Part shown: piece after piece, positions 15,196 to 64,000 of the stretch
Layout: each line of letters begins with the position of its first letter
How positions within the stretch are numbered: position 1 is the first letter of the stretch
Assembly (NCBI RefSeq): GCF_018446385.1
Contig: NC_055987.1
Span: 3,222,205 to 3,286,204 of the forward strand
Length of the DNA stretch: 64,000 bases
Direction of reading: 5' to 3'
Source of the DNA: Zingiber officinale
Lineage: Eukaryota > Streptophyta > Magnoliopsida > Zingiberales > Zingiberaceae
The notes under the pieces: generated by a model
What the model was told of the DNA's origin: nothing
What the model saw: only the letters and a program-made list of their open reading frames with translations
The model's database searches: none
Translations under genes and position numbers: made by a program

Positions 15196-16069
15196 TGTTG
15201 GTGTAGCGAAAGCCGGCAAGAGGGGGGTGAATTGCCTGAAAAATAAAACTATACCCTCCTCGAAATTTTCAACTCAAATAGTGCAATAGTAAAATAATAA
15301 AATTAAAAGCAGAAATGAAAAGGGACTCAGAGGTTAACCGGGTTACAACCACGAAGGTTGTTAATCCAGGGCGATGAAAAGCGCACTAGAAAGATCTCCA
15401 TCTCTAAAGGCAGAGAAGCCTTTTACACTTTGGAAGTTTAGAACTATTGCTAGAAATGACTACACAGTTGATTGCTTGAGTTAATTTTTAGATCTGGACC
15501 AATGCTATATTTATAGCCTTGGTCGGGGCGCCCTGAAGAGTTCCAGGCGCCATGGGGGAGAAAATTTTATCCCCCAACGAATAGATCGTGGTTTGACCGT
15601 GATCAAGATAAGAAGGAATCCCGGGCGCCCGGAATGGATCCGGGCGCCCGGACTGTGAAGTCAACCAGGTTGACTTTTTGTCCAAGCCTTCTGCTCTATT
15701 TCAGCTTGTCTCGGTCCGGGTCTCTTCTGCTCCGGCTCCGTTTGCTTTGGTGATTTCGGCCAACCGGAATAGGGCTGACCCAAACCCAATTCTCGGTCTT
15801 CTCCTCGAGCAGTCTTCCGTCCCGGCTTTACGTCCCTCAAACGCCGTGCACGTTCTTCACGCCCACCGGTGTACTCTTCCACAGATTTCTCATCCTTCGG
15901 ACGCACCGAGCCCGTCAGCTTCCTTCCCGTGCCGTCTTTCTCGCTAGCTGCGTCTTCCGCTCGACTTCCTGCGCTCCTAAGCTCCTGCACACTTAGACAC
16001 AGGGATTAGACAAAACAGGACCCAACCTAAACTTGGTTGATCATATCAAAACAACCACGGGGTCCAACA
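15196..16069 (-). repeat. 3' LTR of the gag-only element
   Basis: On the minus strand it holds the palindrome pair CCGGGCGCCCGG twice (plus-strand positions about 15617-15652), a second GGCGCC pair, then GGCTATAAATATAGC, a likely TATA region (about 15508-15525). The 3' terminus has a GGGGGG tract at about 15220 on the plus strand. Confidence 0.9.
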
Positions 16070-16088
16070 ATCTCCCCCTTTTTGATGT
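16070..16088 (-). promoter_or_regulatory. Polypurine tract of the gag-only element
   Basis: On the minus strand the purine run AAAAAGGGGGAGATT directly abuts the 3' LTR. This is the plus-strand priming site position of Copia-type elements. Confidence 0.8.
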
Positions 16089-16870
16089 GCATCAACCCAA
16101 GTTTAAGTTAGGGTAAAACAAACAAATAGTAATTTACTAAACTAACATTTTTGGCGCAAAAATTGCAATAATAAAATTTGCAACATAAGTTAGAATTTTT
16201 TTTAATTATCCTAACTCCCCCTAAACTTGTTACTTAATTCTCCCCCTTTGATCACAGCAAAAACAGGGTAAAAGCAGTTTTTTTTTTTAAAATGCTAAGT
16301 TCATTTTCAAAAAATTTTCAAAATGCTTTCTAAGTTGAAAACATTACTATATAAAAAAAATTTCAAAATTAAGATGTAATTTTAATTGAGAATTTTTTTT
16401 TTAATTTGTAAGTACAAAAATATTTTTAGAAGACTTAAACAAAAAAAACTTTCTAACTTTAGAAGACTTTTTAGCAAAAATAGTTTTAAAGATTTTTCAA
16501 GTTTAAATGAAAGAATTTCTAATTTCAGAATAGATTTAAACTTAAAAAAAAACTATTTGAGAATTTTTCAAAAAATATTTCTAAGTATTTTTCAAAATTC
16601 ATGTGCAGTATTTAAAAATGATTAAAAAAATATTTAAGTAACCTTTTTAAAGCATTGTTTTATTCTAATTTTAATACTTTTACCAGAAAGTTAATTAAAT
16701 ATTTTATTTCGATATTTCAGCTTCCAGGTCGTGGAGAGACACTTGGTCTTCTTGGTTATTGGAGCAACAACCATTTCCTTAGACAAAGCTTCATAAAGAA
16801 ATTCATTGTTTAATTTACTCGCTGTAAGCTCTAACTTATAAAGTTTTTAATCTAGTAAAGATTTTGGAAT

Positions 16871-18823
16871 TCAGTATAGATTCCTTTCTACTGGGTTATT
16901 CAAAAATTTAGGGGGTACATAATTTCTGGGAACTTTCCTAAGTTGTCCCTGATGTTTTCTAATATACCAGTTTAATTTTCCGTAGACCTTAATTTTTGAT
17001 TTTTGAAATCGATTTGGTCTTAAACATGCATTCTCAGTTTTCAATTTTCCAATTTCTAAATTTAATTTTTCATTTTCTAGATTCAAATTCTCTAATTGCG
17101 TTTTTAAGTTGGCAATTTCTTTTTTTGATTTGACTAAGTCTTTGGTAAGTACCTTAATAAACTTGAAAGATCGAGAAGGAGTGACATCACGTACCTTACT
17201 TACCTCACTTGGTGATGCTCCCCCTTCTTCGGAGCTTTCTTCTTCTGATTCTCCCCCTTGATCAATGCTCATCTCTGAGTCCGAGTCATCTTCGAAGAGA
17301 TGATTGGCCACCAGTCCTAGTCCCGAGAAAGCTTCGGCTTCTGACTCGGATGATGAAGAATCATCCCATGTAGCCTTCAGGCTCTTCCGTGTAGAGGACG
17401 TCGATTTTTGAGGCTTCTCTTTGTTCTTTTTCTTCAGTTTGGGGTAGGGATGTAAATGAACCAAACGGTTCGTGAGCTATTCGGAGCTCGATTCGGTAAA
17501 AAGCTCGTTCGAGTTCGTTTGTTTATCTTATCGAGCCGAGCTCGAGCTCGATTTCGAGTTCGACAGTTTTATCAAGCTGAGCTCGAGCTTAAGGATATTC
17601 GGCTCGTGAGCTCGCGAACATGTTCGTTTATAGGCTCGCGAGACAAAAAAACGAGCGTTAAATCGAGCCAAAAAATGAGCTCTAAAACGAGCCAAAAAAA
17701 TGAGCTCTAAAACGAGCCTTAAACCGAGCCAAAAAATTCAGCCAAAAACGAGCCCAAAAACGACCCCGAGCTTGCTTAACGAGTTAGGCTCGTTAACTTT
17801 GATAATCGAGCTAATAATGAGCCAAGCTCGAACTGTTCGCGAGCTTGATAATTCTAAAACGAGCCGAGCTCGAGCCTTGTGATAAAGCTCGATTCGAGCT
17901 CGAGCCGAGCTCGAGCCCGAATATAACTTAAACGAGCCGAGCTCGAGCCTGATACTGTTCGGCTCGATTCGGCTCGTTTACATCCCTAGTTTGGGGCAGT
18001 CATCCTTGATGTGCTCTTCCTCGTTGCAGTTGTAGCATCGGACCATCCTTCTGTTGCGTTAATGCTTCCTCAAGTGCGATTTAAATTTAATAGTTTTAAC
18101 AAATTTATTTAGCTTTCTTACCAAAAGTGCTGCTTCGTTTTCGTCGATCGATGCTTCGGAGTCGAGATAGTCCTTTTCGGCTTGTAGGGCAATGTTGAGG
18201 TTCGACTTCTCTACTGGTTTCTCTGCAAGTCGAGACTCATGAAGTTCGAAAGTAGAAAATAAGTTTTCTAAACTACTTACCTCAAAGTCCTTAGAGATGT
18301 AGTATGCATCTACTAAGGACGCCCATTCAGGGATTCTAGGGAAGGCGTTGAACGCGTATCGGATGGAATCTCGATTTGTTACCAATTCGCCGAGATTCGT
18401 CAGTTGCGTAATCAGCTCCTTGATTCTTGCTTGGAGTTACGCTACCTTTTCGCCAGTGTTCATCCGGAGATTCGTTAGTTGTGTCCGAAGGATGTCGCGC
18501 CTCGCTAGCTTTGCTTCCGAGGTACCTTCGTGGAGCTCTAGGAATTTCTCCCAGAGGTCGTTTGCAGAGTCGTAGCTTCCGATCCGGCTTACCTCCTGGG
18601 GCGGCAGAACGCTGAGCAGGTGGAATTCCGCCTTTCCGTTGGCCACAAAATCAGTCTGCTCTTTCTTTGTCCAGTTGTACTCTTCTTTGTCTTTTGGCGC
18701 TGCATATCCATATTTCATTATTAATAATATATCAAATTCAGTTTTAAAAAATACCTCCATTTTTCGCTTCCATGTAGCGAAATCTCTGTCGAATTTCGAG
18801 GGATGAATATTTGCTCCGACCAT
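16871..18823 (-). pseudogene. Copia-type gag, two nonsense codons, interrupted by a MITE
   Basis: Starts at ATG 18823 (MVGANIHPSKFDRDFATWK). The DUF4219/UBN2-like gag fold follows, with DLWEKFLELHEG about 75-90 residues in. TAA at 18437-18439 and TAA at 18059-18061 break the same frame. The CCHC zinc knuckle CYNCNEEEHIKDDC follows at about 18000-18045. The 544-bp MITE sits right after the knuckle. Beyond it the frame resumes with a lysine-rich stretch, an acidic serine-rich region (about 17210-17370) and a long coiled coil (KKEIANLKTQLENLNLENEK, about 17050-17130). It packages element RNA in the family. A nonfunctional relic here. Confidence 0.82.
17445..17988. mobile_element. hAT-type MITE, 544 bp, TSD GTTTGGGG
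   Basis: Inverted ends TAGGGATGTAAATGAACC and (right end) GGCTCGTTTACATCCCTA. Perfect 8-bp duplication GTTTGGGG at 17437-17444 and 17989-17996, the hAT signature. The interior is packed with GAGCTCGAGC-type palindromes and AAACGAGCC repeats. No coding capacity. Inserted in the gag relic after the zinc knuckle. Confidence 0.93.
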
Positions 18824-18868
18824 CGTCTTTGTGCTTCAGTCGGCGGTTAGTTCTTCTGAGGCGGTGTG

Positions 18869-18880
18869 GCTCTGATACCA
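18869..18880 (-). promoter_or_regulatory. Primer-binding site (initiator tRNA-Met)
   Basis: The minus strand reads TGGTATCAGAGC two bases inside the 5' LTR. This is the standard plant Copia PBS complementary to the 3' end of initiator tRNA-Met, and it fixes the element's orientation. Confidence 0.93.
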
Positions 18881-18882
18881 AT

Positions 18883-19773
18883 TGTTGGTGCAGCGGAGGC
18901 CGGCAAGAGGGGGATGAATTGCCTGAAAAATAAAAACTATACCCTCCTCAGAATTTTCAACTCAAATAGTACAATAGTAAAATAATAAAATTAAAAGCAA
19001 AAACGAAAAGGGACTCAGTAGTTAACCTGGTTACAACCAAGAAAGTTGTTAATCCAGGGCGATGAAAAGTGCACTAGAAAGATCTCCTTCTCTGAAGGCG
19101 GAGAAGCCTTTTACACTTTGGAAGTTTAGAACTATTGCTAGAAATGACTACACAGTTGATTGCTTGAGTTAATTTTTAGATCTGGACCAAGGCTATATTT
19201 ATAGCCTTGGTCGGGGTGCCCCGAAGAGTTCCAGGCGCCCTGGGGGGATAAAATTTTATCCTCCAATGAATAGAACGCGGTTTGACCGCGATCAAGATAA
19301 GAAGGCATCCCGGGCGCCCGAAATGGTTCTGGGCGCCTGGACCTCCGGGCGCCCGGACTGTGAAGTCAACAAGTTGACTTTTCGTCCAGGCCTTCTGGTC
19401 CGTTTCAGCTCGCCTCGGTCCGGGTCTCTTCTGCTCCGCCACCATTTACTTGGGTGATCTCGGCCAACCGGAATAGGGCTCACCCGAACCCAATTCCCGG
19501 CCTTCTCCTCGAGCAGTCTTCCATCCCGGCTTTACGTCCCTCGAACGTCGCGCACGTTCTTCACGCCTACCGGTGTACTCTTCCACAGCTTTCTCGTCCT
19601 TCGGACGCACCGAGCCCGTCAGCTTCCTTCCCGTGCCGTCCTTCTCGCTAGCTGCGTCTTCCGCTGGACTTCCTGCGCTCCTAAGCTCCTGCACACTTAG
19701 ACACAGGGATCTGACAAAACATGACCTAACCTAAGCTTGGTTGATCACATCAAAACAGCCATAGGGTCCAACA
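18883..19773 (-). repeat. 5' LTR of the gag-only element
   Basis: Direct partner of 15196-16069. It carries three GGGCGCC-type palindromes at about 19308-19355 where the other LTR has two. G tract GGGGG at about 18908. Confidence 0.9.
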
Positions 19774-19879
19774 CAAATGTGACGGCTATAGGCGGAAGGA
19801 TGTGAGTATTAGTCTCCGTCCTAGGAGTTTTGAATGCTTTAAGCACTTATGCACTCAAAGAACCCATGTTTCACTACAA

Positions 19880-20215
19880 CAAAAACCTTCATAGACATCG
19901 GTTTTCCACCGGTGTCTATTTCATTTTCGACCGATGTCTATTTCATTTTTGACCCATGTCTATGAAGCCGATGTTAAAAGTCTGCCATTTTAGACATCGG
20001 GTTAAAACCGGTGTAGTATCACTTAACGACACCGATCTTCGAATCGGTTATTAACCGGTGTAGTATCACTTAACGACACCGTTTCATCAACGGTGTAAAA
20101 CTGATGTAATATTGTATGTTAATAACACCAGTTTTGGCAGCGGTAAATGACCGATGTAATATTAGTTAATAACACCGGTTTTGCAGCGATGGAAAACCGA
20201 TGTAATATGTATATT
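19880..20215. repeat. CACTA left subterminal repeats
   Basis: Short degenerate copies of ACCGGTGTNNTAT, CGATGTCTATTTC and CACCGNTTT in both orientations. In characterised CACTA elements such regions bind the element-encoded protein. The same words recur near the right end. Confidence 0.8.
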
Positions 20216-22828: not shown

Positions 22829-23240
22829 GTTTCATATCTGGTCTCTTTGGTGCAGGAAGTAATACAGAGTGGAAAAGGTTTATACAATATAGCAAACAAG
22901 TTATCTAAGAACTTGCAAAATGGAAAACCTCAACCAACAAATATTGATCACTTGACCCAAAACTCTGATCATTGTAATATCCAACATAAAATAGCATTAA
23001 AAACACATTAACAGATAGATGATCAAGCAGCATAGATTCATTGTTTCATATCTGGCCCCTTTGGTGAAGGAATTCAAATGTACGCATGGGGTACTGAACT
23101 AAAGATACTACGGAGTGGAAAAGGTTTATACAATCTAGCAAAAAAGTTGTCTACGAACTTGCAAATGGAAAACACCAAAAATATTGATCACTCGACAGAA
23201 AACTATGATAATCGTGATAACCAACATCAAAAAATCACAT
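22829..23240. repeat. Two diverged direct copies of a roughly 190-bp segment
   Basis: The segment starting TGTTTCATATCTGG, containing GGAAAAGGTTTATACAAT and ending near CCAACAT, occurs at about 22829-23005 and again at 23044-23240. It sits directly 3' (minus sense) of the captured P0 exon 2. Arose before or after capture. Confidence 0.8.
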
Positions 23241-28702: not shown

Positions 28703-28722
28703 AAAAAGGGGGAGATTTTTGG

Positions 28723-29800
28723 TGTGATTAGCACTAACGGTATAACTCAAGTTTTGATGAATGAGAAAATAGGTTAAGTTAGTTTCGTTGTTATCTAACA
28801 CTCTGACCAAGTGTGCAGGAAAAGCCCAGACAGGTCGATGGGTTGACCTGATGTCTAGCACAAAGCCCAGCTAGGTCGACGGGCCGACCGGATAGCTGGC
28901 ACGAAGTCCAAACGGGTCGATGGGTTGACCGAACATTTGGCATGAAGTCCAGCTAGGTCGACGGGTTGACCGGATAGCTGGCACGAAGCCCAAACGGGTC
29001 GAAGGGCTGACCGGACGTCTGGCAGGTAAGTGAAGGTAAGTCGCTGGAGGGGAGTGACTGTGAGGACGCGTTCCCAGGAAGGGAACATTAGGCGTCGATT
29101 CTACTTAGACCCATTTCAGATATCTAAGTCGAGATCGTGACTAGATTCCAGTCTCGAGGAGACGGAATCTAGCTAATACTCTACTTGTTAATTTTAAACT
29201 ATGCTAACACTTTGTTTTGCAGGATATATATATCGTATGTTTGCCTCCAGACTAACGTTTTCTTGCAGGAAGGAAGTTGCTGGAAAACCAGGGTCCGGGC
29301 GTCCGGGAGAGATCCGGGCGCTTGGAGGTAAATTTTATCTCCCAACGAGCCTCGCCACGTGGAGCATCCTGGTTAGGTCAGCTACGTCATATTCAGCGCG
29401 CCCGAAGGGATCCGGGCGCCCCGAAGCTCCTATATAAGGAGGTAAAGGCTGAAGCTCAACACAACAACAAAACAACGAACAATTTGCTCTCCTGTGCTCC
29501 TACAACACTGCGAAGGCTCTCGGACAAGTTTTGGTTTTCTTATTATTCTCTTATTATCGGTTTTATTTTCCTTTACTAAAATTCCTGTACTGCATTTGTA
29601 AATACACTTCGAATTATTAGTAATTGCCCATCAAAAGCACCCTTGCGTGCGGTCCTTAGAGTAGGAGTCGCCAAAGGCTCCGAACCAAGGAAATCATTGT
29701 GTTTGCTTTGACTTGTTTATTTTCCGCTACGTGTCTCATTTTTTTTTTTAAATCGCTATTCCCCCCCCCCCCCCCTTCTCGCGAAACTCATGATCCAACA
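28723..29800 (+). repeat. 3' LTR with 41-bp palindromic minisatellite and C15 tract
   Basis: Begins TGTGATTAGC after the PPT and ends GATCCAACA. Five 41-bp units occupy 28823-29027. CCGGGCG-type palindromes lie at 29296-29322 and 29400-29420. The TATA-like CTATATAAGG is at about 29430-29439. A C15 run (29761-29775) lies 25 bp before the end. Confidence 0.8.
28823..29027 (+). repeat. 41-bp tandem repeat, five copies, containing GGTCGACGGGYYGACC
   Basis: Units start at 28823, 28864, 28905, 28946 and 28987. Odd and even units differ (AAACGGGTCGA versus AGCTAGGTCGA), so the array looks like a higher-order dimer. Each unit has an imperfect inverted repeat around GTCGA...GACC. Confidence 0.93.
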
Positions 29801-33957: not shown

Positions 33958-34030
33958 AGAAGTGTTGGTGGCAATCAAACTCTAAGGTTTTAATGTCCGA
34001 TAAATATGTTTAAGTATAGTTAATAGAGTT

Positions 34031-34246
34031 TGATCATGGAAAGACCTAGTTGTAGGCTAGACAAGGGAAAACTCAGTAGATCATGGAAGCCAGGTGGATT
34101 CGATAGGTCTGGAGGATTTAATCCCTGGGTAGCCGAATATTGAGTCTTGGAAAGTCCTAGTTGTAGGCTAGGCAAGGGAAATCTCGGTAGATCGTGGGAG
34201 CCAGGTGGATAGGTCTGGAGGACCTGATCCCTGGGTAGTCGAATAC
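34031..34246 (+). repeat. 110-bp tandem duplication inside the solo LTR
   Basis: CCTAGTTGTAGGCTAG followed by CCAGGTGGAT and ATCCCTGGGTAG occurs in two consecutive copies starting at 34031 and 34141. A partial third copy begins at 34247. Confidence 0.88.
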
Positions 34247-34814
34247 TGAGTCTTGGTAAGTGAAGCCAGGTGGAGAAAACCCTAGGGGGTGGTAACCTTA
34301 GGTTCTGGTGAGTGAAACTAGATGGTGAAAATCTTAGGGGGAGATAGCCTTAGGTAGCGAGAAGTCTTGGATGAGTGAACTCCAAGTAAGGATGATCAGA
34401 TGATTTTTGATCGACTGTGCGCGGTCGACCGGACCAGTGGATCTCGGTAAATCTAAGTTTAGGTTTACCATAGTATTTTGTATTACAATTATTGATGTTG
34501 GCTAATATAGTATTGCAGGAAAAGTCTTAGTGGATCAGGCGATGAGACACTAAGCAAGCAAAGTCCAAACATGTCTGGAGGACCAATGTTTGGCAGGTAG
34601 GTTGAGATAAGCAACTGGAGGAGCGACAATGAGGTTGTGTTCCTGAAAGGAATAACCTAAGGTCGCTGATTCAACTGAATAAAGCAGGAAGGTTTCCATG
34701 TTGAGATCAAGACAGTTGAACTGTCTATTATTATTACTCATGCATTAGATATATTATTACTGTGCTAATATCTGTTTTGCAAGATTATCATCTAACACTA
34801 TTTTGCAGGTTTGG

Positions 34815-35215
34815 CTTGATCGGTCGACCGAACCTGATAATCGATCGATCGAACATGGCTAACTCAGAACAGACACCAGTTCAGATCAAAGCAGAGTGAA
34901 ATCCGATCAAAGCTTGATCGGTTGACCGAACCCTGACGATGTGGCACAGATCAGTTCGATCAAAAGCAGAGAAGGAAACTAAGCTGATCGGTCGACCAAA
35001 CTAGGAGATCGGTCGATCGAACTAACACCTCATCAATGCAACATTAAGTGCGAATCTCGGCGAACAGGAAAATTCTCTGTTCAGTCGACCTAAAAAGGTG
35101 TTCGGTCGACCGAACACTTTAATGTCATTAAATGTCGAAGATCGAATCAGCATCAGATCTTAGCGAAGATGGAATGAAGCTGGTTCGGTCGACTGAACCC
35201 AAGGATCAGTCGATC
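34815..35215 (+). repeat. GGTCGACC / ATCGATCGAT palindrome block
   Basis: Variants of TCGGTCGACCGAAC and ATCGATCGATCGAAC occur in pairs at about 34818-34856, 34913-34932, 34984-35024, 35081-35118 and 35182-35220, separated by non-palindromic spacers of 40-60 bp. Confidence 0.85.
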
Positions 35216-35714
35216 GAATGTCGACGACTCTTATAAAAGTGAGCTCGAGGTCTGAGGCTGAGTAACAAATGAAAACGGATTTGTTCGAAGTTCATCTCTG
35301 CGCAAGCTATTGTTCGTTCTACTACTCTTCTACACATCCATCAAGCAAGCTGTTATACCATCCAAGAAGTACCGATCGAGCTGCATCTTCTATCTAAGTA
35401 ATCGGTATATTTATTTAGCTTGTTTTGCACTTAATCTAAAGTAAGATAGTAGGTTGTTACTATCTTACTCATTTCATTGTACGATCTGCTTTTCTCTGAG
35501 ATTTTCAGAGAAAAGAATTTTAGTGGATTATCCAATGATGTGATCAAAGATTGCGGGCCTTGGATTAGGAGTTGACCTAGGATTCAAATCAAGTAACCGA
35601 ATTATGTTATTTAATTTTTGCTGCATGACTTTGATTTAAACGTGTAAAAGAAAAGTTTTTAAAAGCGCGATATTCATCCCCCCCTCTATCACACTCTTTC
35701 GATCCTACAAGAAG

Positions 35715-44579: not shown

Positions 44580-46974
44580 TGCTGAAGTTGAAGAATTTGT
44601 CAACTTTGCTAAAGTCATCCAGAATGTATGAATGATGCTGAATTAAAGTGTTCGTGTAATCATAAAAAATATCAAAATAGAGCTTTCTGTGAAAAAGATA
44701 CTGTAAAAATGCATATATATAGGAATAATCTTGTGCCAAATTACTACAATTGGTACTGTCACGGAGAACCTTATTTGTATGAACCAATTGGACCTTCCAG
44801 TGGTTCATCATCTGGCACAACTTTTACTGTGCATGACTCATCAACTTATGATATTGGAATGCAATCAATGGTTCACGATGCAATGAATGTCACAGTTGAT
44901 TATTCCAATATAAACGAAAGACCTGCACCTGAATATCAACAGCTATATGAAATGTTGAAGACTAGTGAAAGAGGTGTGGAAAGGCATTCCCTCAAGTCAC
45001 TAGCAATTATCAACTACTGCAAGGTTATTGAATATGAAAGCAGAACATTATTTTTCTGAAAGATGTTATGATGATATATGTCAATTGATGTCAGAGTTGC
45101 TTCCTGCTGAATACATAATGACAGATAGTTTTTACAGTACCAAGAAATTGGTTAGAGGTTTAGATTTGCCTGTAGAGAAGATTTATTGTTGTGTAAACAA
45201 CTGCATGATATTTTGGAATGAAGATAGCTGAACTGAGTGAATGCAAAATCTGTACTCACCCTCATTATAAGAATGATACTCGCATACCATGGAAGAAGAA
45301 GAAAAATATTGCTTGAAAAGTGATGTATTACTTTCCTTTGACTGCTAGACTTCAACGCTTGTATGCATCTGTCGCTATAGCTTGTCACATGACGTGGCAT
45401 CATGAACATGAGCATGAAGGAGGAATTATGTGTCATTCTTGTGATTCCTCTGCATGGAAATATCTTGATACTGTATTTGTTCCCTCGTTTGCAATGGAAC
45501 CACGTAATGTGAGATTGAGACTTTCCGCTGATGGATTACAACCATTTGGTCAATCGGGACAGCAATATTCATCCTGGCCAATTATATTAGCATCGTACAA
45601 TTTACCACCCTGGATGTGCATGAAAGATGAATTTATGTTCCTTACTGTGATTATTCCTAGTCCAACCAATCCCAAAGAGAAGATTGATGTTTTCTTGCAA
45701 CTGCTAATTGCAGAATTAAATGATTTATGGAATATAGGGTCGGTGACTTATGATGTTGTAAGTAAAACTAATTTTAGATTGCATGTTGCATTATTATGGA
45801 TGATCAGTGATTTTCCAGCATATTTAATGTTGTCAGGATGGAGCACGGCGGGTAAATTAGCTTGTCTACACTGCATGACAGATTCTGATTCCTTTTCATT
45901 ACCTTGTAGTCGGAAATTATCCTGGTTTGATAATCATCGGAAATTTTTACCTGTTGATCACCCTTTCGGTGGAATAAGAACAATTTTCTAAAAAATATTG
46001 TAGGTAGAAAACATCCTCCAACATTCCATACATCAGGTGAAGAAATCATTGAACAAATAGACAGTTATGGATTTCTACCAGTATCTCAATCTGGTTCTGA
46101 TGAGATAAATAGACACATTGTTAGGATGTGCCAGTATGGTTGGAAAAAAAGGAGTATTTTTTGGGAGCTCCCCTATTGGAAAGATCTACTCATTCGACAT
46201 AATTTAGATGTCATGCATGTTGAGAAAAATTTCTTCGATAATATCTTTAACACTGTGATGAATGTGCCTGGAAAAACTAAAGACACTGCAAAATCTAGTG
46301 AAGAATTAAAAGAATTAGTAAACAGACCAGAGTTGCATCAAAATGAAATAACCAATAGATTTCCAAAGGCTTGTTATATATTAGACAAAGACGAGAAGCA
46401 GACATTATGTAGTTGGTTGAAGGAAGTAAAATTTCCAGATGGGTATGCCTCAAATATAGCTCATTGCGTGGATATGAATAGGTTAAAGACATTTGAGATG
46501 AAGAGTCATGACTGTCATGTATTCATGCAAAGACTTATTCCAGTAGCTTTCCATGATTTACTTTTTTATAATGTTTGGCAAGCCCTCACAGAATTAAGTC
46601 TATTTTTTAGAGATTTGACAACGAGGTGTATTATAATGGATGATATGCTTCGGCTAAAAGTAGACATTCCTCTCATATTATGTAAGTTAAAGCGCATATT
46701 TCCAACTAATTTTTTTGATTCAATGGAACATCTGCCAGTATATTTGTCATATAAGACACAAATAGTTGGTCCTGTGCAATATAGATGAATGTATCCATTC
46801 GAACGATTTTTTAGAAAATTAAAGAATAATGTTCATAACAAAGCAAGAGTTGAGGGCTCAATATGTAATGCTTATTTGGTTGAAGAAGTATCTTTTTTCT
46901 GCTCTTATTATTTTGCTGATAATGTCAAAATCAGACATCGCAAGGTTCCTAGAAATTATGATGATGCTTAAGCA
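44580..46974 (+). pseudogene. TNP2-like CACTA transposase, broken
   Basis: In order: N-terminal zinc-binding-like HPECMNDAELKCSCNHKKY and VPNYYNWYCHGE (about 44620-44770); KIYCCVNNCMIFWNEDS (45179-45229); the catalytic region MTWHHEHEHEGGIMCHSCDS, EPRNVRLRLSADGLQPFGQS and YNLPPWMCMKDEFMFLTVII (45388-45655); FPAYLMLSGWSTAGKLACLH (about 45810-45870); then RHNLDVMHVEKNFFDNIFNT (46195-46254); and a DUF4218 region with LPVYLSYKTQIVGPVQYR, a TGA where Trp is expected (46786-46788), and MYPFERFFRKLKN. Frames change near 45055, 45230 and 45990; some may be introns. Confidence 0.85.
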
Positions 46975-53509: not shown

Positions 53510-54082
53510 TGTAGGACCGGGTTGACTGACTTTAGGGGGTGAATAACCTGCTATTAAAAACTAACTTCTCATGCTAACCAGCTTAACAAGGACACACACA
53601 CATTATGTTAGAATAAATAACATAAACAGAAGTGATAGGGTTTTACTTTGTTACAACCTAGGTGATTGTTAGTCCAAGACTATTGAAGTTCCAGTAACAA
53701 TCTCCTTCGGAGAGAGTAGCCTTTTACAATAGTTGAGTACATGAATGAAAAATAGTAAACAGGTAAATACGAGTGTGTTTTTGATAACAGAGTGCACAAT
53801 CCTATTTATAGCTTTCCTAGTTGAACTGACCATTTGCGATCAATTATCGCAATTTAAAGTTTATTGGTCAATTGATTGGTCGACCGAATTTTGAACCTAC
53901 TCGGCTTTGCGTCTAGATCCAACCTCTCCGAATGAAACTTGTGTTTGGCCAACTGATCCTCTTGATCGATCAACTGAACCTCTGATCTTCCTACGACTTA
54001 TTTGACCTAATGAGTTCACGCTTCTGATCCAATGTTCAGTTGACCGATCCATTCTTTCAATTGATCGAACAAGCTGGAATGG
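53510..54082 (-). mobile_element. LTR fragment A (TGTAGGACCGG...), palindrome-bearing
   Basis: Starts TGTAGGACCGG followed by GGGGGTGAATAACC, the same terminal layout as the other LTRs when read from their 3' end. Contains CCTTTTACAATAG, a TATA-like CCTATTTATAGC (about 53801) and GGTCGACCGA / GATCGATCAACTGA palindromes (53875-54070). Truncated on the right by LTR B. Confidence 0.7.
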
Positions 54083-54515
54083 TCTATTAGGACCGTGATG
54101 TCCATTAGAGGAGGTGGAGGTGGGGGGGGGGGGGGGGGAATAGCGTTTCGTCGTGCTTGTCGGTTGTTTCATCTTGATGATGTGCAACATTAATAAACAC
54201 AAGACACACACAACGGTAACAATTAGGATTTAATTGGTATCCACCTCAAGAAGAGGTGACTAATCCAAGGATCCACACATGACACGCTATCTCCACTATG
54301 AAACACTCCTTCTCAGTTGCAGCCGGAGGCGGAGAAGCCTCGTACAAACTCACACAACAACACACACAAAAATACAAGAAGAGAGTACAAGATACAAATA
54401 AAAACACTACTTCTTCTTGCTTACTTGTAGCTTGTTGTTGCCTCTTGAACCTTGGACAAGCCCCTCCAAGTGCCTTCAAGACTGGCAGTGAAAGTCAGAG
54501 AAAGCGCTGTGAAAC
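54083..54515 (-). mobile_element. LTR B, first part, with G17 tract
   Basis: Begins near TATTAGGACCGTGATG, then GGTGGAGGT and a run of about 17 G (54122-54139) followed by AATAGCG. Interrupted at 54516 by the Angela-like Copia. Its continuation is 63191 to the window end. Confidence 0.65.
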
Positions 54516-56364
54516 TGTTGGATTTTTCGGGCCGCGAAAACCGCTTTTTCGCGTCGCGAAAACCCCGAATCACCCTAGCCAACGGATCTCGTGCGAAGAA
54601 AACTTTTCAAAAACGATACGAGTACGAGTTTACAACTTAGATCTACTCCTAGATCTACATGAAGAAGAATTATACCTTCGAAGCGTGCCTTTCGCGTATC
54701 CCGCTCGTCCAAAACGCCGGATCTCGAGAGTATCAAGATAGATACCCCTCTAGAAGTATCCACACAAACACGTAGGTGGAGAAAAATACACAAAGAGGTG
54801 TGCTAGCACCTATTTGTGGTTCGGCCAAGATGAGGAGGAGAAGGAGAGCTTGAGAGGAAGAAGATGCAATAATCATCACTTGAATGAAAATGAATCCATC
54901 TTCATTCAAATTGTGGCCGACCACATTTCCCAAATGTAACCCCCTCATTAATGCATTAAGTTGTCATCAAAGAGGGAATGTAACCTCCATGAGGTGGCAC
55001 CCACTAGTAACTCCTATGAGGTGGCAACCATGATGATGTGGTGCATCATCATTGGTTCACATCAATGCCAACTCACCAATGAGGTGGCATAAAGTCAAGT
55101 CAAACTTGACTTTTAATCTTCCTCTCAAGTCAAGTCAAACTTGACCAAATCTCTTCCATGGTTGATCTAATCTAACTATTTGATTCAAGCTAACTTAATA
55201 TAATGAATCTAATTCATTAAATTAAGTTGATTTAATGAGTCATAATCTAAATTAGACTCATTGAATACATGAATCAACTTGAGTCTAACTCAATTAGCCC
55301 AATTTGGATTACTCTTAATCCAATTTGATCCATCAAATGAATCAAGTCCTCTTGGTTCATCATATGAACCTAATCTCCATCTAATTGTCCTAAGTGTGTG
55401 ACCCTATAGGTTCTTGTAACGTTGGCAATGCCCTAAACCCATTTAGGAGCATAAGTAATGAGCGGTATCTAGCAACACATCATTACTACCCAAGTTACAA
55501 GAATGTCGAGATCCAACATCACCTTGTGACTACTAATTGTGACTCCTCACAATATATGACAAGTGTCCTTCTATCCTAGACATCTAGATTGGTCAATGTG
55601 AAGCATAGACCGTGTCATCCTCTGACCAATCTAAATCTTGAACTCCAAGTAGACTCACTAAATCAAATGAACTCAATATCCTATATTGACTCATTTGGGC
55701 ATGGCCATGCACTTCGTGGTCTCACTCTATCAAGAATACCGATGTCTCTCCCGTCATATAGGAGGGATAGATCCCATCTACATCACTCACATCCCTCTGC
55801 ATAATTTGTTATATATCCAGTAATCGCCTTTATAGTCCACCCAGTTTCGGGTGACGTTTGACGAAACCAAAGTACATAACTCCTTATGTAGGGATCTATT
55901 GTGACTTTAGGTATAAGGACTAGTAGTCATACTAATAGCCACATGAGAAAGTATATGACACTCATATAACGATCCATGATACTTTCTCATGGCGGGTCAT
56001 TCAGTATACATTCTCTAATGTATACCCATGTGTCAACTTGATATCTCTATATCCATGACTTGTGAGATCAAGTCATCGAGTTGACCTACATGCTAGTCTT
56101 ATTGCATTAACATTGTCCCTGAATGTTAATACTCGACTAGGAATGATTAAGAGTAGTGTTCCCTATATCATCTCACTATCGGTTCAACTAACCGATTGAT
56201 ATAGGTGAGAACCATCTACTCAAGGACATTATTATACTTAGTTTATTTGGCACAAATACAAGTAAGTATAATAACCAAAATCCAAATGCCTTTATTTATA
56301 GAATATGATACAATAAGTCCAAAATACAATCATTTAATGATTGGCTCTAGGGCTCTAGCTAACA
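54516..56364 (-). repeat. 3' LTR of the Angela-like Copia
   Basis: TGTTGG...CTAACA. Contains a hairpin CATGAGAAAGTAT ... ATACTTTCTCATG (55942-55992) and GTCAAGTCAAACTTGAC twice (55093-55146), itself an inverted repeat. Both are also in the other LTR. Confidence 0.92.
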
Positions 56365-56378
56365 ATCTCCCACTAGCA

Positions 56379-57900
56379 CTAGTGCCAATCAGTGTAGGCT
56401 CTAAGCCCAAATGACCTAGTGTGACCATCATGCTTCTTCTGTGCCAAAGCCTTGGTCAAGGGATCTGCGATGTTAGCCTCTGTAGGTACTCTGCAAATCT
56501 TCACATCTCCTCTCTCGATGATCTCTCGAATGAGATGGAAGCGCCGTAGTATGTGTTTGTTCCGTTGGTGTGAGCGTGGTTCCTTCGCCTGTGCTATAGC
56601 TCCATTGCTGTCACAATAGAGCTCAATGGGGTCAGCAATGCTAGGAACCACCCCAAGTTCAGTGATGAACTTGCGGATCCAAACTGCCTCCTTTGCTGCC
56701 TCTGATGCAGCAATGTACTCGGCTTCTGTCGTAGAATCAGCTACTGTGTCCTGCTTAATGCAAAATACGAACCCCGATTGCGATCTATAGTCATCCTGGT
56801 CGGTCTGGAAGCTAGCATCACTGTAACCCTTTACAGCTAGCTCATCATTGCCTCCATATATCAAGAAATATTCTTTAGTCCTTCTTAAGTACTTAAGAAT
56901 ATTCTTGACCGCTATCCAGTGACTTTCACCTAGATCTGACTGGTATCTGCTCGTCATGCTCAAAGCATACGAGACATCAGGTCGAGTACATAGCATGGCG
57001 TACATGATCGATCCTATGGCTGAGGCATAAGGGATCTGATCCATGCGGTCTCTCTCCTCTCTAGAAGAGGGACCTTGAGTCTTCGAAAGACTCACGCCAT
57101 GTGACATCGGCAGAAATCCCTTCTTGGAGTTCTGCATGGCAAACCGAAGGAGTAGCTTGTCAATGTATGTACTCTGACTTAGGCCAAGCAATCTCTTAGA
57201 TCTATCTCTATAGATCTGTATCCCTAGAATGTGGGATGCTTCACCTAAGTCCTTCATTGAGAAGCAACTCCCTAGCCAAGTCTTGACAGACTGAAGCATA
57301 GGGATGTCCTTCCCAATGAGTAGTATGTCATCCACATACAATATGAGGAAGACAACTATATTCCCTACAACCTTCTTGTAGACACAAGGCTCATCTTCGT
57401 TCTTGATGAAACCAAACTATTTGATTGCATCATCGAATCAAAGATTCCAGCTCCGAGAAGCTTGCTTTAGTCCATAAATGGACCTATGCAGCTTGCATAC
57501 TAGTATGTTGTGGATCTACAAAACCCTCAGGTTGTGTCATGTACACATCCTCGAGTAGGTTTCCATTCAGAAACGCGGTTTTGACATCCATCTGCCATAT
57601 CTCATAGTCATGGTAGGCTGCAATAGCAAGCATGATCCGAATGGACTTAAACATCGCTACTGGAGAAAAGGTTTCATCATAGTCAATACCATGAATCTGC
57701 TTGAAACCTTTAGCTACCAAGCGACCCTTATAGATAAGTCCATCCATGTAGTCTTTCTCTTAAAGATCCACTTGCACCCAATGGATTTTACCCCTTCAGG
57801 TGGATCAACCAAAGTCCATACTTGGTTGGTGTACATGGATTCCATTTCGGATCTCATGGCCTCTAGCCATTTCTCGGAATCTGGTCTCATCACAGCTTCC
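56379..57900 (-). pseudogene. Copia reverse transcriptase and RNase H, few breaks
   Basis: RT begins WLEAMRSEMESMYTNQVW; a frame change in KWIFKRK (about 57745); then GRLVAKGFKQIHGIDYDETF and DVKTAFLNGNLLEDVYMTQP. A frame break or stop lies at about 57420-57485. It continues to the catalytic box YVDD in ILYVDDILLIG (about 57330). RNase H follows with KYLRRTKEYFLIYGGNDELA and DSTTEAEYIAASEAAKEAVW. Between SGFVFC and IKQDTVADS about 11 residues usual in the family are missing, an in-frame deletion at about 56755. It ends HTRSFGLRAYTDWH. Confidence 0.85.
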
Positions 57901-59430
57901 TGATAGGTGGTAGGCTCATCCTCTATGAGCACAATGTCATCATGGTCAGACAAGAGAAATGAGTATCTCTCAGGCTGACGACGTACCCTATCAGACCTGC
58001 GAAGAGGTATGTCTACTTGAACCGGTTGTTGTTCCTCAACTCCTTGTGGAACAACATCATCCACAACACTTTGTGGTTCCAGTTCAATTTCCATCGAGGC
58101 ATCAGTGCTATTGTTCGCATCTTGAACTTCTTCAAGATCAAACGCGCTCCCACTAGTCTTTCTAGAAACAAAGTCCCTTTCTAGAAAGACCCCAGTCTTT
58201 GCCACAATTTGACTGGGAATGTAGAAGTAATATCCCTTGGTTTCCTTGGGATATCCAATGAAATAACACTTGTCGATTTGGGTCCTAATTTGTCCGAGAC
58301 TTGACGCCTAACGTAAGTCTCACAAATCCTCATGAGACATCTCCGGACATCTCCACCATATCCTATATGGTGTCTTTATCACGGCCTTGGATGGAACTCG
58401 GTTGAGTATAAAAGCTGCCGTGTCTAGAGCATAGCCCCAAAGGAATGTCGGAAGATCTGTGTGACTCATCATAGACAGTACCATATCTAATAAGGTACGA
58501 TTTCTCCTTTCGGACACACCATTCCACTTTGGTGTTCCAGGAGGAGTGAGTTGGGATAGAATCCCACACTCAGCTAGATAGTCACGGAATTCATGGCTAA
58601 GGTATTCTCCACCTCGATCGGATCGAAGTATCTTAATACTCTTGCCAAGCTGGTTCTGTACTTCATTCTTGAATTCTTTGAACTTTTCAAAGGATTCTGA
58701 CTTATGTGTCATCAAGTACACATAACCATATCTACTGAAGTCATCAGTAAACGTGATGAAGTACCTATAACCGCCTTTAGCAGTGACATTGAAAGGGCCA
58801 CATACATCACTATGTATGAGTCCTAACAAATCAGTCGCCCTTTCGCTGTGCCCACTAAAGGGAGTCTTGGTCATCTTGCCTCGTAGGCATGACTCGCATA
58901 TCTCATATGATTCTAAATCAAATGAGTCCAGCAAACCATCCTTATGGAGCTGGGATAAGCGCTTGTCATTTATATGACCTAAGCGACAATGCCAGAGATA
59001 GGTTTGGTTCAGGTCATTTGACTTGAACCTCTTGGTATTTATGTTATAGATAGGGCTCTCAAGGTCAAGAAAATAGAGTCCGTTTATCAGAGGTGCACTA
59101 CAATAGAACATATCGTTTAAATAGACGGAACAACATTTGTTCTTTATTATAAACGAGAATCCTTTCTTGTCCAAACAAGAAACTGAAATTATGTTCTTAG
59201 TCAAGGCAGGCACATAACAATAATCATCTAATTCTAGTACTAGCCCAGAGGGCAGAGATAGATGGTAAGTTCCTACAGCAATAGCAGCAACCCGTGCTCC
59301 ATTGCCTACTCGTAGGTCTATCTCACCCTTCGTCAATGCCCTGCTATTTCTCAGCGCTTGTACATTAGTACAAATGTGCGAAGCACATCCGGTATCTAAT
59401 ACCCACGATGAAGAAATAGAGAGGTTGACT
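57714..59430 (-). pseudogene. Copia protease, GAG-pre-integrase and integrase
   Basis: Protease motif DTGCASHICTNVQ (family DSG/DTG, about 59385-59412). HCRLGHINDKRLSQLH and CESCLRG form the HHCC zinc-binding region (about 58890-58995). The integrase catalytic residues are in HSDVCGPF, RSDRGGEYL and NGVSERRNRTLLD (about 58490-58810), the DD35E triad intact. A frame change near 58320-58330 separates it from the linker KTGVFLERDFVSRKTSGSAF, which leads into RT. The long open frame (58320-59336) suggests young age. Confidence 0.88.
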
Positions 59431-59514
59431 TCTATAACATGTATACCTGAAGTAGAAATCTTATTTCTCTTCTTCTTAAGATCTTCCAGGTATTCTTTGG
59501 AGTTCCTTTTCTAG

Positions 59515-59849
59515 TGCCTTGCTTGTCCTTGATATAGGTGACAAAGATGTTCAACCATATCATAAGCGCTCATCAACTCATGTTGCTTCTGAAGCTCTGA
59601 GTTCATGGTTGCGAGCATAAGACAGGACACATCTAATGCGTCATCTTGATGCTTCTTGTAAGCATCTCGGTCTGCTCGCGTGGCAGTAGCAGGAGGAGCC
59701 TCCGGAATGGGTTGCTCCAGAACGTACAGTTTACGTTCTTGAGTGAGAACTATTCTCAGGTTCCTGTATCAGTCCAGGAAGTTTGCTCCGTTGAGCTTGT
59801 CCTTCTCAAGGACAGATCGCAGGGAGAAGGTGTTCGTATTTGACGTCAT
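59515..59849 (-). pseudogene. Truncated Copia gag with internal deletion
   Basis: ATG 59849 opens MTSNTNTFSLRSVLEKDKLN, with TGA where Trp is expected after GANFLD (about 59770). It runs to MLATMNSELQKQHELMSAYD and LYQGQARH. Directly after, at about 59515, a TAG and KRNSKEYLEDLKKK follow, sequence that in relatives lies after the zinc knuckle. The central gag and the CCHC knuckle are therefore deleted. Confidence 0.8.
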
Positions 59850-59850
59850 G

Positions 59851-61330
59851 GTTATCTACAACAGAATAAAAATAGAAATAAATATCATATTCTTAATTAT
59901 TTAATTAGGCCTTTAACTAAATGATGCTCCCACTGAATTCTATAATTCATGTGGGACAAGATCCACATCATACTAACCCTTGAGTTAGTTTTGGCTAATA
60001 CGCCCAAGATTTAGTATGATCGGTAGGTAACGATTACCAATTACATCTCTATGCAACTCTTGTTTATAGGATAAAATCTGCATTTATATTAAAACTCGAG
60101 TTAGCTTTGGCTAATACGCCCGAGAGTTAATATAAACATGATTTTGTCCTACTTTTCCAAACATTGGAAGAATGCCTATAGTTATACTCGATCCAACCGA
60201 GTTAACTAGGGATACTCAATCTTATTGAGTTTATATTCACCCATGCGTTGATAGGCGGGACCAAGATTGTCCCTCCGCACCCTACCAAGATAGTATGCGT
60301 TGCTCTGCTTTGGCAGATTCAACAACATCATGCGATCGAGGTAGTGATGGGTATCACAGCATGGTAGGCATTTTGAGTTGTCGTGATTTAGATCTAATCT
60401 AAATGATGTTGTATCATATACACGAAATAGATCTAATCTAATCAATAGAGTGCATCTTGTACACGATGTAGATCTAATCTAATCGTAAGACACTAATTAA
60501 TTACTTAATTAAACATGCATCATATACACAAGTAATTAACTAAGTTTTTGTGATTAGTCATGGCCCTACTACGATCTTCTCAAGCCAATGAGAAGATCGG
60601 ATAGTCAACCTAAGGTCAACTTCTCAAGCGCCTTCCTTTTGACCACCTTGTGTTACTCGCGCCTTCCTCGTAACTCCGTCTCGAGTGGACCTTCCACAGC
60701 TCTAAATTTGTACATTACAATTTTTGAAACTCGAGTTACATTCGAGTCTAAATCTAATTTACAACCAGAATAATAGAAAGGCATGACGCGCAGGTCGTGA
60801 AAATAAAATAAAAAATAAAATACAAGCACGCACATTACATAACGGCACGCAGACCGTATTATGAATTACAACACAATATCCAAATCTAATTTGGGTCATT
60901 TGGGCCATGACTATCACAAAATTAATATATAATTCAAAATTATATATTTCTGTAATTTTTCATAATTTTACAGATTTTATGAGTAAATTTTTTCCGGCGG
61001 TCCCGATTAGCGATTTCGGGCGCAATCGCGGAGCAAATCCCCTTGCGGGGTTAGGGGCAGTACCCCTACCCGCGATCTAACCATCGCGAGTTGCTCCTAA
61101 GCGATCCAAAAGTGCCTTATCCCGCTGTCCCAAAAAGATTTGGGTCGAAACGATGCCGTTTCGGGAAAAACTTCTCGGTAGTCGAAGCCTACAAGTGTAT
61201 AAACACTTGTGCTTCGCTTCTACGAGAAAAATTACTCTTAAAACTATAAAAACCATAAATTTACAGAAATGTACAGAAACTTTAATTTTTCATAAAAATC
61301 AAATTAAACTCGTACAAGCTTCGCACGTGG
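59851..61330 (-). other. Long 5' leader of the Angela-like Copia
   Basis: Non-coding region between PBS and gag. Contains two copies of GAGTTAGYTTTGGCTAATAC followed by GCCC (59982 and 60098) and three of AGATCTAATCTAA (60390-60483), plus a GC-rich stretch at 60985-61100. Long, possibly structured leaders are typical of this lineage. Confidence 0.7.
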
Positions 61331-61342
61331 CTCTGATACCAC
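61331..61342 (-). promoter_or_regulatory. Primer-binding site of the Angela-like Copia
   Basis: The minus strand reads TGGTATCAGAGC directly inside the 5' LTR. Confidence 0.92.
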
Positions 61343-63190
61343 TGTTGGGTTTTCCGGGCCGCGAAAACCGCTTTTTCGCGTAGCGGAAACCCCGAATCAC
61401 CCTAGCCAACGGATCTCGTGCGAAGAAAACTTTTCAAAAACGATACGAGTACGAGTTTACAACTTAGATCTACACCTAGATCTACATGAAGAAGAATTAT
61501 ACCTTCGAAGTGTGCCTTTCGCGTATCCCGCTCGTCCAAAACGCCGGATCTCGAGAGTATCAAGATAGATACCCCTCTAGAAGTATCCACACGAACACGT
61601 AGATGAGAAAAACACACAAAGAGGTGTGCTAGCACCTATTTGTGGTTCGGCCAAGATGAGGAGGAGAAGGAGAGCTTGAGAGGAAGAAGATGCAATAATC
61701 ATCACTTGAATGAAAATGAATCCATCTTCATTCAAATTGTGGCCGACCACATTTCCCAAATGTAACCCCCTCATTAATGCATTAAGTTGTCATCAAAGAG
61801 GGAATGTAACCTCCATGAGGTGACACTCACTAATAACTCCTATGAGGTGGCAACCATGATGATGTGGTGCATCATCATTGGTTCACATCAATGCCAACTC
61901 ACCAATGAGGTGGCATAAAGTCAAGTCAAACTTGACTTTTAATCTTCCTCTCAAGTCAAGTCAAACTTGACCAAATCTCTTCCATGGTTGATCTAATCTA
62001 ACCATTTGATTCAAGACAACTTAATATAATGAATCTAATTCATTAAATTAAGTTGATTTAATGAGTCATAATCTAAATTAGACTCATTGAATACATGAAT
62101 CAACTTGAGTCTAACTCAATTAGCCCAATTTGGATTACTTTTAATCCAATTTGATCCATCAAATGAATCAAGTCCTCTTGGTTCATCATATGAACCTAAT
62201 CTCCATCTAATTGTCCTAAGTGTGTGACCCTATAGGTTCTTGTAACGTTGGCAATGCCCTAAACCCATTTAGGAGCATAAGTAATGAGCGGTATCTAGCA
62301 ACACATCATTACTACCCAAGTTACAAGAATGTCGAAATCCAACATCACCTTGTGACTACTAATTGTGACTCCTCACAATATATGACAAGTGTCCTTCTAT
62401 CCTAGACATCTAGATTGGTCAATGTGAAGCATAGACCGTGTTATTCTCTGACCAATCTAAATCTTGAACTCCAAGTAGACTCACTAAATCAAATGAACTC
62501 AATATCCTATATTGACTCATTTGGGCATGGCCATGCACTTCGTGGTCTCACTCTATCAAGAATACCGATGTCTCTCCCGTCATATAGGAGGGATAGATCT
62601 CATCTACATCACTCACATCCCTCTGCATAATTTGTTATATACCCAGTAATCGCCTTTATAGTCCACCCAGTTACAGGTGACGTTTGACGAAACCAAAGTA
62701 CATAACTCCTTATGTAGGGAACCATGGTGACTTCAGGTCTAAGGACTAGTAGTCATACTAATAGCCACATGAGAAAGTATATGACACTCATATAACGATC
62801 CATGATACTTTCTCATGGCGGGTCATTCAGTATACATTCTCTAATGTATACCCATGTGTCAACTTGATATCTCTATATCCATGACTTGTGAGATCAAGTC
62901 ATCGAGTTGACCTACATGCTAGTCTTATTGTATTAACATTGTCCCTGAATGTTAATACTCGACTAAGAATGATTAAGAGTAGTGTTCCCTATATCATCTC
63001 ACTATCGGTTCAACTAACCGATTGATATAGGTGAGAACCATCTACTCAAGGACATTATTATACTTAGTTTATTTGGCACAAATACAAGTAAGTATAATAA
63101 CTAAAATCCAAATGCCTTTATTTATAGAATATGATACAATAAGTCCAAAATACAATCATCTAATGATTGGCTCTAGGGCTTTAGCTAACA
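61343..63190 (-). repeat. 5' LTR of the Angela-like Copia
   Basis: Direct partner of 54516-56364 with scattered substitutions and short indels. Same hairpin (62768-62818). Confidence 0.92.
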
Positions 63191-64000
63191 GATCACACAC
63201 AAATCGCAGATGAAGCTCGCAAAGAACTGCGGAGAAAATGCTACTCCCAGACTTTAAACAGTGCTCCCAATCGATCCAAATCATCCCCAATCGATTGCCA
63301 CGTCAGCACCGATCCATCGCAGCCGTCCATCGCTCGTTTCCTGCTCAACGGTCACTTCCCAATCGATCCACCGATCGATTGGGGCTGTCTGAATCGATCG
63401 ACTGATCGATTCAGCTTCATTCTGTGCTCTCGCGTCCGCGCGAGAGCTTCTGCTTCCAATCGATCAACCGATCGATTGGGAACATCTGAATCGATCGGTG
63501 GATCGATTCAGATGCATTCTGTGTTCTCGCAATCGCCCGAGAACTTCCCTGCCCAATCGATCAGCTGATCGATTGGCAGCTCCCAATCGATCGCCCGATC
63601 GATTGGGAAGGGTTCTGTGCTCACGAAATATGGTCCCAATCGATTGGGTCATTCCTTCCTTCATAGCACACTCCAATCGATCAGCTGATCGATTGGAGCT
63701 TGTTCAATCGATCGCCCGATCGATTGAACACCCTGGACTTGACTCAAACTCAAGTCCAGCTCCCCAAACCCAACTCTTGGTCAACCGTGACCTGTTGGGT
63801 TTGCACGCCTAGCATTTTGCTACTCTCGACCAACCTCGAACTAGCCTTCTAGCCTCCTCCATCAGCCTTGCGTCCCTCGGATATCTCCCCATCCTTCACG
63901 CCTTGCCTTCTGGAGCTTCCATCGGCCTCATCCTAGTTGTCGGGTTCTCGTAGCCAAATCACCCTAGGACTTGCTCTGCCAAGATCACACTTGGACTTTC
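63191..64000 (-). mobile_element. LTR B, continued, runs off the window
   Basis: Resumes at GATCACACACAAATCGCAG after the nested element. Contains the four-module ATCGAT palindrome array and then CCTTGCGTCCCTCGGATATC-type DNA resembling the 15800-15960 part of the gag-only element's LTR. The other end lies beyond 64000. Confidence 0.6.
63356..63735 (-). repeat. Tandem array of ATCGAT palindrome pairs, four modules
   Basis: Palindromes CCAATCGATC-n-GATCGATTGG at about 63358, 63455, 63554, 63582 and 63672, and GAATCGATC-n-GATCGATTC or TCAATCGATC-n-GATCGATTGA at about 63390, 63489 and 63704, with spacers CAC, ACT, AAC, AGCT, GCCC. GCTCTCGCGTCCGCGCGAGAGC (63426) and GTTCTCGCAATCGCCCGAGAAC (63523) are further inverted repeats between pairs. 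Confidence 0.9.

Follow-up and report, generated by a model that had tools for sequence, protein, structure and literature searches.

The closest described counterparts of the sequences reported here are found in Sireviruses, a group of Ty1/copia retrotransposons. The sections available to us of Bousios et al. (2010; PMC2829016) describe 13 Sireviruses with palindromic, element-specific repeated motifs ("RM boxes") upstream of TATA. According to the same sections, the RM clusters form CpG islands in most Sireviruses, TATA lies on average 37 bp past the island, and the published RM words include CGGTCGACCG (Vitis) and ACAATCGATTGT (Tnd-1); the regulatory role of the palindromes was left open in 2010. 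In maize, the Sirevirus cis region contains palindrome clusters, is predicted to fold strongly and varies greatly in sequence (Bousios et al. 2016, as related in the accessible parts of PMC10760457 and PMC5311732). The SIRE lineage is reported to be prevalent in Amomum, a genus related to ginger (PMC11066291, accessible part); a literature search for Zingiberaceae together with Sirevirus found no paper. Here, a stretch of 64,000 nucleotides from Zingiber officinale (C2:3222205-3286204; in the following, the window) and the 3.09-Gb assembly of 211 contigs to which it belongs were analysed. Palindromic words containing CpG occupy a slot upstream of TATA in long terminal repeats (LTRs) of the window, and LTRs with homologous flanks carry dissimilar words in this slot. 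On balance, we lean towards reading the slot as a cis-regulatory cassette in the unique 3' (U3) region of Sirevirus LTRs, which would consist of sites for dimeric proteins and would be exchanged by template switching.

The elements concerned and their parts are the following.

15196-19773, minus strand: element A, 4.6 kb, with target site duplication (TSD) CAAAT and two LTRs with CCGGGCGCCCGG-type words
15196..16069, minus strand: A3, the 3' LTR of element A, with the word CCGGGCGCCCGG (type w1) and ends TGTTGG...CCAACA; the terminal polypurine tract (PPT) is at 16072 and the TSD CAAAT directly beyond the LTR
15515..15735, minus strand: palindrome block of A3, which precedes its TATA (about 15515, LTR sense)
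16070..18882, minus strand: interior of element A, with a copia gag fragment (Retrotran_gag_2) and AGGGGGAG octamers at 16072, 16215, 16240, 17218 and 17251; broken by a hAT-like insert, no pol match in the open frames scanned
18883..19773, minus strand: A5, the 5' LTR of element A, with the primer binding site (PBS) TATCAGAGC at 18869
19203..19439, minus strand: palindrome block of A5, where identity to LTRs with w2 or w3 words drops to 28-72%
28722..29800, plus strand: LTR B, with a 15-C tract near its end, TATA at about 29431, an array of imperfect GGTCGA...TTGACC at 28823-29020 and GGGCG words ahead of TATA; PPT octamers of element B at 28707 and 27933
33963..35709, plus strand: LTR C, a solo LTR with TSD AGAAG on both sides, a poly-C tract and TATA at about 35231
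34815..35225, plus strand: palindrome block of C, with a GATCGGTCGACCGAAC-type word in pairs spaced 21 bp
53512..54100, minus strand: D, an LTR fragment with TATA at about 53810, preceded by GGTCGACC/ATCGATC words in degenerate form
54100..54508, minus strand: 3' part of LTR E; a nested copia element lies between it and the E block
63191..64000, minus strand: remainder of LTR E, running past the window edge
63350..63740, minus strand: palindrome block of E, with eight ATCGATC-N4-GATCGAT dyads whose outer arms differ yet are complementary

In LTR sense, a TATA-like box lies downstream of the palindrome cluster in A, B, C and D; in E, TTTAAAG is the only candidate. Reading of the sequence bears out the words listed by the initial annotation: the GGGCGCCC type at 15617-15652 and 19308-19355, the GGTCGACC and ATCGATCGAT types at 34815-35225, and ATCGAT cores, which are the long dyads of E. 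The two A sites represent both LTRs of the single element A, and the flanks of B and C, described as recognisably shared, match weakly (58 bp at 72%, E = 0.007). The hAT-like insert in element A (17445-17988) is non-autonomous, with inverted ends TAGGGATGTAAA/TTTACATCCCTA, an 8-bp flanking repeat GTTTGGGG and abundant GAGCTCG words inside. The element nested in LTR E (about 54509-63190, minus strand) is a Ty1/copia element with integrase and RVT_2 matches; its LTR repeats, of 272 and 300 bp, share 96-99% identity, are free of a CpG palindrome array and were used as control. At locus L003 (L numbers denote loci of the assembly) the order of the E parts is uninterrupted, as judged by eye.

Each interval of the slot was set against 300 dinucleotide-shuffled versions of itself. 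In C and E, perfect CpG dyads were far above the shuffles (observed number reached in 0/300 each). It was reached in 59/300 and 90/300 shuffles of the short A intervals, in 149/300 for B and in 71/300 for D, and in 25, 38 and four times 300 of 300 for the six control intervals. A second test admitted mismatches and used wider slots. Here, the numbers were 4/300 for A3, 3/300 for B near TATA and 0/300 for A5, C and E; D was not significant (43/300), and the upstream array of B (28800-29060) contained zero sites at the threshold. Two of three controls, both LTRs of the nested copia element, gave two non-CpG quasi-palindromes each (7/300 and 6/300), and the third gave none. The shuffles thus back the slot in four of the five window elements, in B weakly. 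The proposed slot holds for C, E and A (A in the mismatch-tolerant test), for B only near TATA, and is not significant for D. The slot is real and unevenly clear across the elements.

For a larger sample, 28 LTRs with A-like flanks were assembled. The query was 300 bp of the right flank of LTR A; from 7,008 candidates, 40 matches were scored, of which 8 became loci and 18 more, mostly partial matches, were picked by hand and fetched. The set comprises these 18, L003, L006, L007 and L008, the two window LTRs and four LTRs found via their word instead of their flank; L001 and L004 (the window LTRs) and L002 and L005 (their copies 27 kb away) were excluded. A left-flank match exists in 27 and a recognised TATA in 26 (L049 and L059 excluded). 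In these 26 LTRs, 213 word hits (overlapping hits included) lie upstream of TATA and none downstream; the word nearest to TATA is at a median of 35 bp (range 16-164). In E-type LTRs, a clear TATA was absent from the scan. The loci L009-L038 were selected by the words themselves and are therefore uninformative on the frequency of the slot. Among five evenly placed 10-kb regions (60 Mb on C1, C3, C5, C7 and C9), one (L043) contains an E-type cluster. Another of the five, L040, has at 1636-2450 a further CpG palindrome cluster with words of the AATTCGTCCCAGA and TTGGGACGAAAA types.

The 28 LTRs carry three word types: w1, CCGGGCGCCCGG, in 11; w2, TGAAGGCGCCTTCA or TGGAGGCGCCTCCA, in 13; and w3, GTTCGGTCGACCGAAC, in the four LTRs found by word, numbers that are not frequencies because the loci were hand-picked. 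The labels were assigned by hand, and few clear words occur in L052 and L058. Compared to A5, the w2 LTRs are 85-88% identical in the left flank (12/13 matched) and 85-94% in the right; the w3 LTRs are 87-90% identical in the left flank and 77-80% in the right. For L044 and L045, both w2, the right flank is 94% identical to that of A5, whereas the w1 copies L057-L061 reach 90-92%. Detectable block homology is lost between LTRs with homologous flanks: A5 and L016 match at 87.3% over 324 bp on the left and 79.6% over 304 bp on the right, A5 and L048 at 87.7% and 86.6%, and in both pairs, the two tested, the block is without a BLAST hit. Identity profiles against A5 in 50-bp bins were calculated for six of the 13 w2, all four w3 and six w1 LTRs. 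For w2 and w3, identity is 70-96% in the left flank and 28-72% in the block, against a baseline of 33-38% for whole LTRs versus their own shuffles. Past TATA, w2 bins reach at least 84% in 30 of 36 cases, and w3 is patchier (42-96%). The w2 and w3 blocks on A-like flanks look like the outcome of block replacement, and the mosaic edges hint at a possible recombination hotspot. Furthermore, the block of L016 matches those of L010, C and L019 over only 40-41 bp, one word pair, and their flanks give no hit; one word is shared by LTR families with unmatched flanks.

Within element A, the palindromes differ between its own two LTRs. A5 has a closer relative in L006 and A3 in L003 (C2:3.21 Mb, the window and C1:3.97-3.99 Mb), a pairing with relatives elsewhere that suggests duplicated or allelic copies.

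Trees were calculated from the right flank (28 rows) and from the left flank (26 rows; L049 has no left match and L057 is too short). The word label changes three times on the right tree (shuffled mean 12.0) and four times on the left (11.3), and 0/200 shuffles were as low on either tree. The words therefore mostly travel with the lineage, with few exchanges or switches. Congruence is not complete: a single w3 clade is rejected in the approximately unbiased (AU) test, on the left flank only (p-AU 0.035), and L044 and L045 fall among w1 on the right-flank tree. A single w2 clade is not rejected (p-AU 0.116 right, 0.131 left), nor is a single w1 clade. Core identity is thus tied to flank phylogeny, though full congruence does not hold either. 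The idea of a modular slot finds support in the homologous flanks around dissimilar blocks (two pairs tested) and in the occurrence of one word in families with unmatched flanks.

The words are abundant and rigidly built. The exact dyad CAATCGATC-N4-GATCGATTG has 61,882 genome sites, and the reversed control has 0; note that the assembly probably contains both haplotypes, so that allelic copies enter all genome counts twice. Allowing spacers of 0-16 yields 63,730 half-site pairs, 97% of which (61,882) have a spacer of 4. The longer range adds little; the spacer is therefore rigid in length, though its letters vary. The central TCGA is present in 40 of 48 TCGG-N4-CCGA sites, and this conservation makes it look like a DNA site and not like a free loop. 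GTTCGGTCGACCGAAC and TGAAGGCGCCTTCA have 6,616 and 11,453 genome sites (control 0 each), and TCCGGGCGCCCGGA, used for counting w1, has 26,318 (control 1). Among 10,221 GTCGAC pairs with a gap of 0-30, 9,329 have a gap of 9, which corresponds to 21 bp from centre to centre. Overlapping dyads in tandem runs were counted singly; for nested variable-gap matches the counting rule is not stated. The observation concerns these fixed spacings themselves. A general helical phasing, considered because distances of 21, 29-32 and 49-53 bp are close to multiples of 10.5, was dropped: Rayleigh values at 10.5 on distinct distances are 0.28 for E, 0.09 for GTCGAC and a modest 0.46 for GGCGCC, without a 10.5 peak for E and GTCGAC. 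In E-type LTRs (L034 885-945, L037 885-933, and L024), ATCGATC dyads with up to two mismatches follow each other at 12-bp steps and share half-sites; such runs are possibly an intermediate of unit amplification.

The two arms of a dyad change together. Matched outer arms occur 61,882 times as CA/TG and 80,940 times as GG/CC, mixed arms 4,913 and 4,875 times (reversed control 2 and 0), a genome-wide odds ratio of about 209 for matched versus mixed. Within LTRs, arms pair in 297/426 cases for E (permuted 217.5) and in 299/476 for GTCGAC (permuted 270.7), with 0/5000 permutations as high in either case. For the GGCGCC words, no within-LTR co-variation was found (161/270, permuted 163.6). Common descent and duplication link the sites, so that the arm pairs are not independent events.

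The array consists of about 2-10 repeated-motif palindromes, ending at a median of 35 bp ahead of TATA. Its core words are putative sites of symmetric, dimeric nuclear proteins that would time the transcription of the element. Rigid spacing, the conserved centre and the position before TATA favour such sites, and the fixed distances would suit a protein-recognition code. Related elements might gain another cassette when reverse transcriptase switches templates between co-packaged RNAs; the words would drift afterwards by paired changes in both arms, and units would be duplicated or lost. Such an exchange has precedents in the modular U3 evolution in the Tnt1 superfamily and in the pairwise recombination of Onsen bursts (accessible parts of PMC1838419 and PMC5668417). 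More tentatively, whole arrays drawn from a limited set of symmetric words in fixed register could be recombined among Sirevirus lineages, changing which DNA-binding protein of host or element, or which silencing signal, is answered; this extended version we regard as doubtful.

Several observations weigh against a cassette of protein sites exchanged between lineages. Co-varying outer arms are unexpected for a protein that reads a fixed word and better fit hairpins or palindrome-correcting mutation, as does the strong folding. As the words mostly follow the flank clades, exchanges may be few and old, and the per-type numbers come from hand-picked or word-found loci. In five of the six w1 profiles, identity to A5 drops to 50-78% in one or more palindrome bins, which shows quick unit turnover without change of word or exchange. 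The right flanks of w3 LTRs are diverged from A5 as well, so that rapid divergence spreading from the block into its surroundings could explain part of the pattern. Moreover, the parts of the w1 and w2 blocks have a similar order, and these blocks may be very diverged homologues. A rival reading is simple divergence, in which there would be one ancestral block altered by fast point changes and unit turnover in the absence of inter-lineage exchange. The strong clustering of word types on both flank trees, the single w1 and w2 clades that were not rejected, the GGCGCC centre common to w1 and w2 with their similar block order, and the variable bins even among w1 copies agree with it. It does not readily account for two flanks that remain alike around a block for which neither of the two tested pairs gave a BLAST hit, or for w3 failing to form one clade on the left flank, and we consider it unlikely.

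The main rival to protein sites is that the palindromes are hairpins in the element RNA, where U3 is located at the 3' end of the transcript. Such hairpins could serve packaging, dimerisation or the 3' end of the element, or be templates for small RNAs through which the element is recognised by its host. Apart from the co-variation within E and GTCGAC LTRs and genome-wide, RNA folding argues for hairpins, with z-scores of -17.2 for E, -5.3 for C, -5.7 for A and -2.95 for one control LTR stretch, and so does an excess of small RNAs on the palindrome clusters of maize Sireviruses (Bousios et al. 2016, as told in the accessible part of PMC10760457). However, the would-be loop, the central TCGA, is conserved, the GGCGCC words show no within-LTR co-variation, and G-U is not in excess over A-C mismatches in E (21:21) or GTCGAC (19:22; outer positions 1-5 for both); the ratio of 39:22 in GGCGCC (positions 1-4) leans towards hairpins among sites that are related copies. 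The mismatch types do not separate the two readings, and hairpins remain to us a tentative alternative, less probable than protein sites. During reverse transcription, intrastrand template switching can correct quasi-palindromes. A purely mutational origin would thus have inverted repeats perfected in this way and units spread by slippage, function being unneeded. It would produce symmetric arms with no need for selection, and would explain why the two LTRs of element A differ in their number of palindromes. Left unexplained are the confinement of the words upstream of TATA, the spacings fixed at 4 nt and 21 bp across thousands of sites and the similar words of Sireviruses from grapevine and tobacco (PMC2829016, available sections); we regard this origin as quite improbable. 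We therefore retain, with the reservations given, the cassette of dimeric protein sites. With more than 60,000 copies of one dyad, more than 80,000 of its sister form, three word types on one LTR background and fixed spacings, ginger offers enough natural variation for telling protein sites, hairpins and a mutational origin apart. If cassette exchange is true, it would account for elements changing or escaping their regulation.

Other features of the window are a gene of the NB-ARC/LRR disease-resistance type (1871-5463, plus strand), perhaps with introns or else broken, whose three open stretches lie in two frames and of which the domain scan covered the middle stretch 2726-4927; a MULE transposase domain fragment (12445-12843, minus strand); and CACTA-like ends near 19872 and 30880, seen by eye. 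A DUF4218 match (45958-46788, within 44613-46788, plus strand) adjoins other open frames, an arrangement that we take to be that of CACTA transposon genes. Rfam and tRNA scans of the 64-kb window gave no matches.

Beyond the array, element A carries those further hallmarks of Sireviruses that were checked. Multiple AGGGGGAG octamers precede its 3' LTR, at 16072 (terminal), 16215 and 16240; those at 17218 and 17251 lie about 1.15 kb upstream within an open frame. Element B has a terminal octamer at 28707 and another at 27933, and the remaining octamers of the window, 23426 and 34336 (within LTR C), are outside a PPT position. The PPT attachment site AT/TG reads AGGGGGAG-AT-TGTTGG in A and AGGGGGAG-AT-TTTTGG in B, TG having become TT in the B copy. 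The LTR/PBS junction, CA/ATTGG (or AGTGG) with TATCAGAGC, is CA/ATTGG-TATCAGAGC at 18869 in A and CCAACAAGTGGTATCAGAGC in L007 and L008. The window copies of C, D and E lack the region that holds the PPT, and those of B-E lack the 5' LTR/PBS junction. A poly-C integrase signal is present near the LTR end of A, B, C and D, and runs of C5 or longer occur in L010, L019, L020, L024, L029, L034, L037 and L038; none was found in the stretches scanned of L033 and L043 or of E on the side of its block. Together with the palindromic RM array just before TATA in the 26 A-flank LTRs, PPT, attachment site, PBS and poly-C signal identify element A as a probable Sirevirus. The ginger feature would hence be the published Sirevirus feature in another host. 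The single LTR superfamily initially proposed stands at the level of the Sirevirus lineage and not beyond it.

A diversifying code of motifs and proteins within transposons would have a precedent, from another transposon class, in the VANC anti-silencing proteins and their short motifs in VANDAL elements of Arabidopsis. Among LTR elements, Tnt1 resembles ginger in a U3 regulatory region that differs sharply among otherwise similar elements (PMC1838419). It is classed apart from Sireviruses (PMC2829016), and the accessible part of PMC1838419 does not contain comparable palindrome arrays. Closer are the Sireviruses themselves. In the maize elements, as in ginger, palindromes cluster where the LTR is regulatory, with a word, CACCGGAC-N3-GTCCGGTG, that is unlike the ginger words. 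In the available sections of PMC2829016, CGGTCGACCG of Vitis and ACAATCGATTGT of Tnd-1 are close to two ginger words. Common to both sets are high-copy, palindromic, element-specific words upstream of TATA, large LTRs, multiple AGGGGGAG, AT/TG and CA/ATTGGTATCAGAGC junctions and the poly-C signal. A CGG-CCG core is shared by 12 of the 13 published RMs, Tnd-1 being the exception; it is present in CGGTCGACCG and CCGGGCGCCCGG and absent from ATCGATC-N4-GATCGAT and TGAAGGCGCCTTCA, for which the likeness would cover the same lineage and slot and not the same signature. In the literature as far as accessible, no account was found of differing words on one LTR background, an N4 dyad with co-varying arms or a 21-bp pairing; Bousios et al. 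(2016) may hold part of this. Judged by these sources, the slot, the palindromes and the diversity of the words are already published, and the differing words on one background, the N4 dyad and the 21-bp pairing are apparently new.

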